Source of the DNA: Pyrinomonadaceae bacterium
GTDB taxonomy: Bacteria > Acidobacteriota > Blastocatellia > Pyrinomonadales > Pyrinomonadaceae
Reading direction: 5' to 3'
Length of the DNA: 34,080 bases
Assembly: GCA_023717605.1 (NCBI GenBank)
Contig: JAMQPH010000667.1
Location: 1 to 34,080 of the forward strand
The notes beneath the pieces are model-generated. The model was not told the origin of the DNA. It did not search any database and was given only the letters and a program-made list of their open reading frames with translations. The translations under genes and the position numbers were made by a program. Shown here in pieces: positions 1 through 3,200 of this stretch. Every line of letters starts with the position of its first letter. Position 1 is the stretch's first letter.

Positions 1-23
1 GCATTAGATGCTGGAATCCGGCA

Positions 24-183
24 GCGGCTTTGCCGGATCCCTTGCGGAAAGGCTCTGCCTTTCCAGCGTACGTTTAAAATTGAAGGCTACGCCTGTTTAG
101 TCACCGAGGCGTAGCCTCAAGAATTTCTGAGGGAGCGCCGCCGGAAAGCCAGAGGCTTTCCGCAAGGGGTGCGGCGAAGCCGC
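24..183. repeat. REP-like inverted repeat, two 45-bp arms
   Basis: Arms at 24-68 and 139-183 are inverted copies that match at 39 of 45 positions. Each arm holds its own hairpin: an 8-bp stem with a TCT loop starting GGAAAG and ending CTTTCC. One stem pair is G-C in the left arm and C-G in the right arm, which is a compensatory change. The left arm is also overlapped by a second hairpin at 16-38. The element lies just downstream of ileS, which is read leftwards, so it would be in the ileS 3' UTR. It resembles REP/BIME elements in design; I do not recognise the family. Confidence 0.75.
80..120 (-). terminator. candidate terminator downstream of ileS
   Basis: An imperfect inverted repeat (80-94 against 107-120, one bulged base, loop of 12) sits at the centre of the REP-like element. 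Read on the minus strand, the stem is followed by a T-rich run (TTCAATTTTAAA). It is about 95 bases past the ileS stop. The T-run is interrupted, so termination is only plausible. Confidence 0.45.
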
Positions 184-184
184 G

Positions 185-222
185 AGTAGCGAACTAAACA
201 CCAAGTAGCGAACTAAACACCC
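185..222. repeat. 19-bp tandem duplication at the ileS 3' end
   Basis: Two 19-bp units (185-203 and 204-222) differ only at the last base. The right-hand unit contains the ileS stop codon (213-215), and the left-hand unit repeats the same bases downstream of it. This looks like a recent slippage duplication. Its presence leaves the ileS reading frame unchanged. Confidence 0.85.
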
Positions 223-3200
223 TCACGCTCAATTTCTTCCAACGCCGCCACGCAACGCTCGCAAACCGTCGGATACCGTGTCGATTCCCCTACGCGAGGC
301 GAATAGTTCCAGCAACGCTCGCATTTCTCGCCGGCTGCGGGATGGATCTCGATTACCACGCCGCTTGCGCCATCTTCCGACGCCAGCACATCTACCTGCG
401 AGACGATGAAGATGTAGCGAAGCTGATCTTTGTATCGTTCAAGCAGTTCGTAGGCGCTACCCGCCGCCGAGATTGCCACACGTGCCTCCAACGAGCTACC
501 AATGAGCTTTCCGATCCTTGATTCTTCCAGGGCCCGGAGGACCTCCTCGCGGATTTCAAAAAGTCGTTCCCAATCTGAGAGCACCCCGGAATCGGTTTGC
601 TGGTTCACATCGGGAAACGTGCCCAGATGTACCAATGCTGACCGTTTTTTGGTTTCGTCCGCCGGCAGATTTTCCCAGATCTCGTCTGCCGTAAACGCGA
701 GTATCGGAGCCAACATGAGCGCGAGCGATTCGGCGATCCGGTAAAGGGCCGTCTGCGCAGAGCGACGCGCGGGATTTCGGGGCGCAAAGGTATACAGTCG
801 ATCCTTGATGATGTCGAAGTAGCGCGCTGAAAGTGTAACCGTGGAGAAATTGTAAAGCGTGTGATAGACCGTGTGAAACTCGTAGGCTTTATACGCTTCG
901 CGAACTTTTCGAATCAAAGCATCAAGCTCGGCCAGCGCCCACCGGTCAATCTCCAGAAGCTCGTCTTCAGTAACGCTGTCGCGTGCAGGATCAAAACCGT
1001 GGAGATTGCCCAGCGCGAAGCGAGCAGTATTGCGCAGTTTGCGATATCCATCTGTGACGCGCTGCAGTATTTCCGCCGAGCAACGCATATCGTCGAAATA
1101 ATTTGAGGACGCACACCATAAACGCAGGATTTCCGCACCCGACTCCTTGATGACTTCATCTGGCGGCACCGCATTGCCCGCCGACTTGTGCATTGCCTTG
1201 CCCTGCGCATCCACCGTCCAACCATGAGTAAGCACGGTTTTATAGGGGGCCCGGTCGTGCACGGCCAGTCCCACCATAAGTGATGAATTGAACCAGCCGC
1301 GAAACTGATCGCCACCTTCGATGTACACGTCAGCCGGCCATTGCAACTCCTGGCGATGTTCCAGAACGGCAATTGACGAGGCGCCACTATCGAACCAAAC
1401 GTCAAGAATATCTGTCTCTTTAATCCACTCGTCCGCACCACACCTCTTACACGTGTAGCCTTCCGGCAAAAGCTCGCGCGCCTCGCGCGTGTACCAGGCA
1501 TCGGCTGACTCGCGTTCAAACACGTCTGCAACGTTGTTTATGATTTGAGGGTCCGCCACCGCCTCGTTGCACTTAGCGCAGTAGAACACGGGAATGGAGA
1601 CTCCCCAGACGCGCTGACGCGAGACGCACCAATCCGTCCGGCCCTCGAACATGTTGCGCATCCGCTCTTCGCCCCAGGAGGGAAGCCATTCAACACGTTC
1701 GATCTCTCGCAAGGCAGCTTCCCTGAGCGAAGCGGGGGAGGCTGAAGTCGCGTCCGAGAAGTTCTCCGTGAAGTTGGTACGGTCACGACCATCTTCGTCT
1801 CGCTCAACCACTGGCCCACCAGCCCTGTCCATGGAAATGAACCACTGCGGCGTGGCCCTGAAGATCACCGGATTCTTGCAGCGCCAGCAATGCGGGTAAC
1901 GGTGCTCGTAGTTTTCGGTGAACAGCAGTACATCGCGTTCGCGCATGAATTCCACAATCCGAGGATTGGCTTCGAAGACATTCTGACCGGCAAAGTGCTC
2001 GACTTCCGGCGTGAAGTGACCGGCGTTGTCCACCGGGCAGTAGATTTCAAGACCGTAGCGCTTACCGATTACAAAGTCGTCGTGCCCGTGGCCAGGCGCG
2101 GTGTGCACACAGCCCGTGCCTGCCTTGCTGGTGACTTTTTTCTCTCTCGCCTCTCTAACGTCCAGTTCGACTTCGGCGTCAGCCTCGCCGCCTAGCGTCA
2201 CGTGTTCTCCCACCATCAGGAGCGATACGCGATCAAGCCAGGCATGACGGCATTCGAGTCGATCGAGCTTGATGCCGGGAAAGCGCGCCAGCACCTTGGG
2301 CGCGACACGATCCCCATTTCCATCGAGTTCGCCCAGATCGCATTTGCTGGCCACGTACTCGAGTAGTTCACTGGCCACAATATAAACCTCATCCCCATGC
2401 TCGAACGCCACGTACTCGAAATCCGGATGCACGGCGATGCCGAGATTGGCGGGAAGCGTCCAGGGCGTCGTGGTCCAGATCAGCACGAACACTTTGCGGC
2501 CTGCCAGTGCCGGATCGATTAACGCCGGATCGCTGCGCAAAGGAAACTTGACGTAAACCGAAGGTCTCGTGTGCTGGTGATACTCGACTTCGGCTTCGGC
2601 AAGCGCTGTTTGATCGTGAATGCACCAGTAAACGGGCCGCGCACCTTTGTACACGTAACCACGTTCGACGAAGCGGCCGAAGAGACGCGCCGTTTCCGCT
2701 TCGTAGTGGTTGGACATCGTGAGATATGGATTGGTCCACTCTCCCAGAATGCCGAGTCGCTGGAAGTCTCTCGTCTGGCGTTTCAATGCCTCTGACGCGT
2801 GCTCCCGGCAGGCGCGGCGAATCGACACCGCCGGCATATTGGCTTTCTTCGCACCCAGCTTGCGGTCTACGTAGAGTTCGATAGGCAGACCGTGGCAGTC
2901 ATAACCGGGAACATAGGGCGCGTCGTAGCCCATCATCGTGCGCGATTTGACTATGAAGTCTTTCAGGATCTTGTTCATTGCCGTGCCGAGGTGGATGTCG
3001 GCATTTGCGTAGGGAGGTCCGTCGTGCAGGATGAACTTCTCCGCGCCGGAGCGGTCCTGCCGGATCATTTCGTAGAGACGAAGTTCGGACCACTTTTTTA
3101 GACGCGCCACTTCACTCTGAGCGAGGTTGGCCTTCTGCGAGAAAGCAGTCTTCGGCAGGTTGATGGTCTTTTTCAGATCGAGCGGGGTTTCAGTGGACAT
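213..3200 (-). CDS. ileS: isoleucyl-tRNA synthetase
   Basis: Class Ia cytoplasmic aminoacyl-tRNA synthetase that charges tRNA-Ile with isoleucine and edits valine. At 995 residues it is in the usual range for bacterial IleRS. The N-terminal catalytic signature PPYANADIHLG is at residues 62-72, followed by the conserved YVPGYDCHGLPIE block. A CP1 editing insertion and the tryptophan-rich WCVSRQRVWG motif follow. The KMSKS loop reads KAMHKSAGN. The last ~35 residues carry a CxxC...CxxC zinc site (CERCWNYSP, then CERC). Two signature positions differ from the textbook forms: HLGT instead of HIGH, and HKS within the KMSKS loop; both variants keep the active-site Lys and Ser. The ATG start at 3200 precedes the canonical N-terminus. 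A terminator at 3281-3314 separates it from the upstream coiled-coil gene, so it probably has its own promoter. Confidence 0.97.
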   Translation of the reverse strand: MSTETPLDLKKTINLPKTAFSQKANLAQSEVARLKKWSELRLYEMIRQDRSGAEKFILHDGPPYANADIHLGTAMNKILKDFIVKSRTMMGYDAPYVPGYDCHGLPIELYVDRKLGAKKANMPAVSIRRACREHASEALKRQTRDFQRLGILGEWTNPYLTMSNHYEAETARLFGRFVERGYVYKGARPVYWCIHDQTALAEAEVEYHQHTRPSVYVKFPLRSDPALIDPALAGRKVFVLIWTTTPWTLPANLGIAVHPDFEYVAFEHGDEVYIVASELLEYVASKCDLGELDGNGDRVAPKVLARFPGIKLDRLECRHAWLDRVSLLMVGEHVTLGGEADAEVELDVREAREKKVTSKAGTGCVHTAPGHGHDDFVIGKRYGLEIYCPVDNAGHFTPEVEHFAGQNVFEANPRIVEFMRERDVLLFTENYEHRYPHCWRCKNPVIFRATPQWFISMDRAGGPVVERDEDGRDRTNFTENFSDATSASPASLREAALREIERVEWLPSWGEERMRNMFEGRTDWCVSRQRVWGVSIPVFYCAKCNEAVADPQIINNVADVFERESADAWYTREARELLPEGYTCKRCGADEWIKETDILDVWFDSGASSIAVLEHRQELQWPADVYIEGGDQFRGWFNSSLMVGLAVHDRAPYKTVLTHGWTVDAQGKAMHKSAGNAVPPDEVIKESGAEILRLWCASSNYFDDMRCSAEILQRVTDGYRKLRNTARFALGNLHGFDPARDSVTEDELLEIDRWALAELDALIRKVREAYKAYEFHTVYHTLYNFSTVTLSARYFDIIKDRLYTFAPRNPARRSAQTALYRIAESLALMLAPILAFTADEIWENLPADETKKRSALVHLGTFPDVNQQTDSGVLSDWERLFEIREEVLRALEESRIGKLIGSSLEARVAISAAGSAYELLERYKDQLRYIFIVSQVDVLASEDGASGVVIEIHPAAGEKCERCWNYSPRVGESTRYPTVCERCVAALEEIEREGV

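Follow-up and report, generated by a model that had tools for sequence, protein, structure and literature searches.

What is the short, strongly folding stretch at the very start of a bacterial contig, and why should two of the few differences between its arms be partners in a single stem? The question is raised by positions 24–183 of the window, i.e., the whole 34,080-nt stretch of DNA from a Pyrinomonadaceae bacterium analysed here (its genome is referred to below as G000). A repeat search placed two 45-nt inverted arms, 87% complementary and 70 nt apart, at 24–68 and 139–183, with six mismatches (31/176, 36/171, 38/169, 52/155, 58/149, and 65/142). The original prediction, made from the letters alone, of two 45-bp arms with six differences was thereby recovered with the same span and the same number of mismatches. 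Its remark that two of the differences are stem partners swapping G-C for C-G also held: the pair G52-C58 of the left arm is represented by C149-G155 in the right one. Each arm compensates the swap within its local hairpin; pairing one arm with the other would instead leave G.G and C.C mismatches there. The window strand folds far better than its dinucleotide shuffles (z = -9.5 as RNA and -9.0 as DNA, with none of 200 shuffles as good). The parts of this 160-nt copy of a hairpin repeat, and the gene beside it, are as follows:

24–183, unstranded: whole gene-less element; its outer edges are the outer ends of H1 on both sides
24–36, unstranded: left H1, GCGGC-TTT-GCCGG; outermost pair 24/36 broken in the window copy
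37–44, unstranded: left tag/linker between H1 and H2; read on the minus strand, CAAGGGAT
45–65, unstranded: left H2, GGAAAGGC-TCT-GCCTTTCC; foot pair C45/A65 broken; holds the pair G52-C58
84–94, unstranded: inner hairpin H3, AGGC-TAC-GCCT
106–118, unstranded: inner hairpin H3', GAGGC-GTA-GCCTC
142–162, unstranded: H2', CGGAAAGCC-AGA-GGCTTTCCG; holds the swapped pair C149-G155
163–170, unstranded: right tag/linker, CAAGGGGT, with the tag CAAGG, as in the C382 RAYT element (see below)
171–183, unstranded: H1', GCGGC-GAA-GCCGC
213–3200, minus strand: adjoining ileS-like ORF, the element lying just downstream of its stop codon

The ORF at 213–3200, which we take to be the isoleucyl-tRNA synthetase gene (ileS), ends 29 nt from the element. 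Only 23 nt separate the element from the contig start, which is also the window edge, and the site therefore lacks one flank. Beside the element, there is also a direct tandem duplication at 185–221 (AGTAGCGAACTAAACACC, two copies, 19 nt apart), spanning the stop codon of the ileS-like gene.

The repeat is by no means unique to the window. A 260-nt query returned 52 matches in its own genome (a copy may be matched once per strand), and an arm covariance model built from 59 arms of G000 returned 87 matches at E <= 0.001 and 97 at E <= 0.1 in the same genome; hence, the window repeat is not a product of chance. Of the 87 arms in the G000 loci examined, 13 stand unpaired, including the four that border the two RAYT genes described below, and the rest form 37 inverted pairs facing outward. 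Two of these pairs are each one hairpin read on both strands, so that 35 elements have a middle. From the inside outwards, the arm consists of a 9-bp hairpin H2 (consensus CGGAAAGsC nnn GsCTTTCCG), an unpaired tag reading CAAGGGAG and similar, and a 5-bp hairpin H1 (GCGGC nnn GCCGC), whereas the middle of the element is made up of the small GC hairpins H3 and H3', both present in 24/35 elements of G000 and 12/18 of the related genome G004, with one in the remaining 11/35 and 6/18. No fixed target could be discerned outside H1, where the flank information is near background (64 flanks in G000, 36 in G004), although the first bases lean weakly to purine. Neither were there nearly identical copies, the most similar pair reaching 85% among the 35 elements of G000 and 88% among the 18 of G004.

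What kind of element this is became apparent from the genes found between such arms. The own genome harbors 14 Y1_Tnp matches, so the anticipated presence of a Y1/RAYT gene was borne out, and two open RAYT genes, on contigs C382 and C502, each lie between two arms of the window-element family:

L043:1919–1960 and 2652–2693: arms of the C382 RAYT
L036:1143–1183 and 1813–1854: arms of the C502 RAYT

H3-like hairpins are seen by eye at both ends of both genes, and the order of the full element is H1-tag-H2-H3-[RAYT gene]-H3'-H2'-tag'-H1'. Because two RAYT genes of the same genome sit between two such arms, the window copy is a gene-less form of the RAYT element. The two proteins are 61% identical and score 84.3 and 83.3 with the NCBIfam model REP_Tyr_transpos (NF047646, cut-off 80); in the Pfam search, Y1_Tnp was the only family found in the RAYT proteins, one of the two passing (25.9) and the other falling just under the threshold (21.5 vs 23). 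The catalytic motifs MPDHxH and YxHxNP are invariant in 26 related sequences, and the C382 protein carries MIDHLH and YVHQNP. A predicted model of a related RAYT (L123, pLDDT 94.3) has a fold like that of ISDra2 TnpA (2xma, E 6.7e-8), with 2a6o also among its structure matches; the E. coli TnpAREP (4er8) ranked sixth (E 2.3e-7, TM 0.61/0.67), while a profile search gave 4er8 as the first match. In a different arrangement, the RAYT gene at L066 (G014:C7:277854–279843), like that at L137, is bordered on both sides by complete elements rather than lying inside one.

Arms and RAYT genes occur together well beyond the source genome. Among the 28 loci with RAYTs of 45–59% identity (L123–L150), all but one bear Acidobacteriota-type titles, many of them Blastocatellia or Pyrinomonadaceae, the exception being titled Planctomycetota; L123 (in G004) and L128 (in G014) belong to congeners, both titled Pyrinomonadaceae. 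At least one arm match was found at 27 of these 28 loci (L127, L140, L142, and L147 are among several with one-sided or weak matches) versus 2 of the 52 loci with more distant or partial RAYTs (L151–L202). In the set of 59 genomes (own, genus, family, class), arms were present in all 16 whose RAYT match reached E <= 1e-40 and in 15/43 others. One 97% complete draft (G006) has 92 arm matches and no detected RAYT match; thus, arms can outlive the gene or occur without it. The RAYT genes of several relatives contain in-frame stops, which fits elements that spread and then decayed. At one locus, L130, six left-type and six right-type arms flank the RAYT gene, and rows of arms are also seen in L075 and L145.

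Taken with the evidence discussed below, the window element is very probably a non-autonomous (MITE- or REPIN-like) copy of a RAYT mobile element with putative recognition of single-strand hairpins, belonging to a family found mainly in Acidobacteriota (Blastocatellia/Pyrinomonadaceae). By analogy with REP and IS200/IS605 elements, each arm would fold into its own hairpins in single-stranded DNA, e.g., in the lagging-strand template. The cognate RAYT, a HuH/Tyr single-strand nuclease, would bind H2 mainly by shape, so that stem letters may change in matched pairs, and would read the unpaired tag by sequence; on the inward-reading strand, the tag is 5' of H2, where the REP tetranucleotide and the IS608 "guide" are also located. 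The enzyme may then cut and join single strands at the element ends, in what would be a single-stranded transposition.

The covariation expected among other copies proved strong both within the own genome and among relatives. In 59 own-genome arms, one H2 pair is A-U in 31 and U-A in 26, with two broken, and another is G-C in 42 and C-G in 17, with none broken. Overall, 95.5% of the own-genome H2 cells are paired versus 89.2% in shuffles, none of 500 being as high; at least as many doubly changed pairs (four) arose in 29/500 shuffles, and at least as many pair types in 344/500. In 54 arms from 29 RAYT elements (27 from relatives and two own, 33 distinct rows), 98.3% of H2 cells are paired versus 85.0% in shuffles, 32 cells are changed on both sides versus 5.8, and such changes occur at 8/9 H2 pairs, the pair types again being unexceptional (reached by 374/500 shuffles). 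In both sets, shifting the partner by 1–3 columns removes most of the signal. Within the own genome, the left and right arms of 28 parsed elements show 11 both-sided differences, 10 of them between standard pairs, as well as 17 one-sided ones; the both-sided differences are mostly one recurring G-C/C-G swap, hence few independent events. The comparisons among RAYT elements rest on 44 loci searched for arm pairs, seven of which (L075, L127, L140, L142, L145, L151, L152) had one-sided, multiple, or no flanking arms and were unused, while another seven (L069, L070, L071, L072, L074, L077, L149) were dropped for another arm type or a poor parse, giving 30 elements; at L066, L135, and L137, the arm used on one or both sides is part of a neighboring complete element.

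If covariation reports folding, copies standing at one site in two genomes report what happens to the fold in place. Six copies are common to G000 and G007 at the same site, with flanks about 81–87% identical; they remain from eight candidates after two unalignable pairs (L003/L313 and L235/L343), and two of the six cover half an element. With damaged stems counted, 23/348 stem, 19/81 loop, and 115/403 spacer plus linker positions are changed in the six pairs (stems vs spacers, Fisher p 1.7e-15). Five pairs with largely intact canonical stems in G000, a count that omits damaged stems, give 16/262, 16/63, and 98/355, respectively (p 1.2e-12), and an automatic stem parse of the six pairs, which also counts chance stem extensions, gives 43/375, 19/76, and 95/381. 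All three counts agree in direction: changes were about fourfold rarer in stems than in spacers, and nearly as frequent in loops as in spacers. Since copying between arms should homogenize loops too, such copying would not explain the constraint on stems. In the five-pair count, 14 pairs are changed on one side (nine lost pairing, one gained it, four kept it), and the only double change is unpaired in both copies, leaving zero compensated ones; this pattern suggests stems that erode slowly under constraint, not stems being corrected.

Several other accounts of the same hairpins have to be weighed against these data. The matched changes might be mutational, arising by template switching within a hairpin, with one stem side rewritten from its partner. 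Such quasi-palindrome correction yields matched changes without selection, and the few events behind the both-sided differences of the own genome would suit it; the far slower change of orthologous stems than of spacers, and the one-sided changes with no compensated partner in the five pairs, speak against it, and we regard this account as very unlikely. Alternatively, the functional unit might be a single long hairpin that pairs arm with arm over the whole 160 nt, the way REPINs are drawn, with the local hairpins as a by-product. Energy minimization does fold the window copy into the long arm-to-arm hairpin, but the H2 pairing is kept within the arm in 486/504 cells versus 465/504 from arm to arm (28/37 G000 elements; the nine omitted comprise two single hairpins, one element cut by a contig end, and six unparsed). 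Moreover, some 600 nt separate the two arms in most RAYT elements, and matched changes between them are frequent: across 25 elements, leaving aside six arms whose loop has 4 nt, 12 differences affect both sides of a pair and 6 only one, the counts being 8 and 5 across 23 elements when L135 and L137 are excluded. A single long hairpin is, hence, improbable, and the original claim of selection for the folded form is supported by the covariation and the RAYT genes, with stems conserved at fixed sites as well, though for short hairpins in each arm instead of the long one.

A role at the RNA level, in which the hairpins spread long ago and were kept mainly as terminators or stabilizers of mRNA 3' ends, draws on the same conservation of stems at fixed sites, on the position of the window copy behind the ileS-like gene, and on the mostly intergenic placement of the copies, many of them in tandem or convergent ORF pairs. 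However, 5/36 copies tabulated in G000 and 2/18 in G004 lie between divergent ORFs (as picked mechanically), where no transcript ends; the promoter/terminator scan of window positions 1–400 gave no match and no terminator-like site, and scans for Rfam families, plasmid DNA similarity, and tRNAs gave no match. Nor would this role explain why tags are symmetric and specific to each element, or why RAYT genes lie within it. This role is not needed to account for the data and has, in our judgment, little probability as the main one. The RAYT-mobilized element, with stems under selection in each arm, thus remains the preferred reading.

The tag beside H2 behaves differently from the stem. Its first five nucleotides are the same in both arms of 27/30 RAYT elements (allowing a one-base parse shift), compared with 39/435 pairs of different RAYT elements. 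The tags of gene-less copies match those of RAYT elements in three of the four open-RAYT genomes compared, a partial correspondence; the counts that follow include the RAYT's own arms where retrieved, and the location of arms with a model built on G000 favors similar tags. In G000, the RAYT tags are CAAGG and CACTG, and the arm tags comprise 25 and 23 of these, plus seven CACGG; in G014, the RAYT tag CACTG is met by 29 CACTG and four CACGG arms; and in G017, the RAYT tags CACTG and C[TC]ATG, the second RAYT having a reported in-frame stop, are accompanied by 9 and 10 arms, plus three CAATG and one CGATG. G004 disagrees, since its RAYT tag is CACAGG and its arms carry CACGG (26) and CAAGG (5). 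In G001 and G010, with a handful of arms only, the decayed CACGG RAYTs are unlike the arm tags, and one CAAGG arm of G001 adjoins a RAYT fragment; the RAYT of G007 has a different arm type and falls outside the comparison. The Mantel test related RAYT distance to tag distance (r 0.28, p 0.0014) and likewise to stem distance (r 0.315, p 0.013), so it does not single out the tag, and shared descent alone could give both correlations.

The distribution of copies across the genus is patchy. The ileS-like gene has matches of at least 75% identity in 13/16 genus genomes, the own one included and a few being partial; by eye, the gap after it holds no element in G007, G002, G010, G009, G015, and G003, and a diverged hairpin element in G014. 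At site C460, the element is common to G000 and G007, a similar one occupies the place in G012, interrupted remnants are found in G001 and G002 and one arm-like stretch in G011, and there is no element in G014, G003, G015, G004, G005, and G013. The element of site C435 is absent from G009 and G007; of two G001 sites, one is common with G000 and lacks the element in G002, G007, and G009, whereas the other lacks it in G000. At none of these five sites was a base-precise empty site found, and the stretches replacing absent copies do not align cleanly. Together with the lack of nearly identical copies, this means that recent or present activity is not evident in the genomes compared. Another palindromic repeat, CCCAGGGTTG...CAACCCTGGG, interrupts the C460 orthologue in L275 (G002) and L276 (G001) and is also present after the ileS-like gene of G002 (L204).

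Among known systems, the family is of the RAYT-repeat kind without being a canonical REP, and its closest known counterparts are TIRtrons and REPINs; in the published, mainly open-access literature searched, no paper title describes it. The original label "REP-like" is apt insofar as short palindromes are dispersed between genes in inverted pairs and a cognate RAYT is flanked by the same repeats (C382, C502, and relatives), and inapt in that no GT[AG]G stands at the H2 foot on either strand, where CAAGG, CACTG, CACGG, CACATCG, CTCATCG, CCATGTG, and others are read instead. As described by Di Nocera et al. 2013, RAYT-like genes may lie between long terminal inverted repeats, some of them "double palindromic", and the repeats are dispersed singly, in dimers, or in clusters, with an Acidobacteria group of transposases distinguished (PMC3733652). 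The TIRtron (TIRYT) arrangement of a RAYT-type gene between long terminal inverted repeats (PMC3733652) is seen here too, the likeness lying in the described layout; unlike in that description, the arm here consists of two hairpins with a tag between them, the tag is specific to the element, and covariation has been measured. The TIRtron hosts named there, K. versatilis, T. saanensis, A. capsulatum, and G. mallensis (PMC3733652), are not among the relatives found here, and the TIRYT groups are given as mostly subclass 2.1 with a C-terminal HTH-like domain (PMC3733652).

With REPINs and their RAYTs, as presented in PMC3116915 and PMC8049555, the window family shares the non-autonomous inverted doublet with a variable spacer, dispersed between genes and moved by a RAYT; it differs in the missing GT[AG]G tag, in two hairpins per arm plus the inner ones, in compensation within each arm's stem, and in a RAYT gene inside the doublet. 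The proteins have the HuH and Y---NP motifs of class 2 TnpAY1 and a predicted TnpAREP-like fold, and a tag at the hairpin foot is likewise a feature of REPtrons (PMC6006769; PMC8266576). However, the combination HuH DHLH / W-D / YVHQNP fits no subclass row in Table 1 of Quentin et al. 2018, where REP types are listed by subclass (PMC6006769), and, unlike in REPtrons as given there, the tag is not GT[AG]G and each arm has two hairpins. The IS200/IS605 elements (IS608, ISDra2) resemble the family in the transposase fold (2xma and 2a6o, by the predicted model) and in hairpins near the ends, whereas here the inverted arms are long, with two hairpins each, and two diverged gene-bearing copies stand against dozens of gene-less ones in the own genome. 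The Y---NP motif speaks against an IS200/IS605 insertion sequence, as class 1 proteins are stated to carry Y---Q (PMC6006769).

In vitro tests of how RAYTs recognize and maintain REP-like repeats have covered a few proteobacterial systems (Corneloup et al. 2021, PMC8266576). The window family supplies dozens of natural variants whose stem letters may differ as long as they pair, while the short tag is fixed per element, making the division of labor between shape and sequence directly testable; it also allows transposase recognition to be told apart from the conservation of individual copies. A bolder reading is that recognition is a two-part rewritable code (stem shape and tag letters, with RAYT and tag changing together) and that copies are, at the same time, held by selection on stems for a host role independent of mobility. 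We consider this combination doubtful, yet worth bearing in mind: if true, one genome would host two RAYT/repeat populations told apart by the tag alone (CAAGG/CACTG in G000, CACTG/CYATG in G017), and G006, with its arms and no detectable RAYT, may exemplify the mobility-independent host role.

The source genome has further Y1/RAYT loci. Inverted repeats of their own type lie near both gene ends at 10 of the 11 other loci scanned (L029, L030, L031, L033, L034, L035, L037, L038, L040, and L042), L039 having none; L037 and L040 share a repeat type, the repeat of L033 overlaps the ORF, and that of L042 is weak. Hence, this genome seems to hold many separate RAYT-repeat systems. One of these loci, L030:45–878 (G000:C421, minus strand), contains a 278-aa ORF of two fused Y1 transposase domains with complementary losses, flanked by 47-nt inverted repeats. 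As seen by eye, its first half keeps the Tyr motif QYLEQQAEHH and has no HuH, and its second half keeps the HuH motif PDHVHLL with Trp where Tyr is expected; judging from these motifs, the product may be an enzyme whose single chain builds one composite active site from the two halves.
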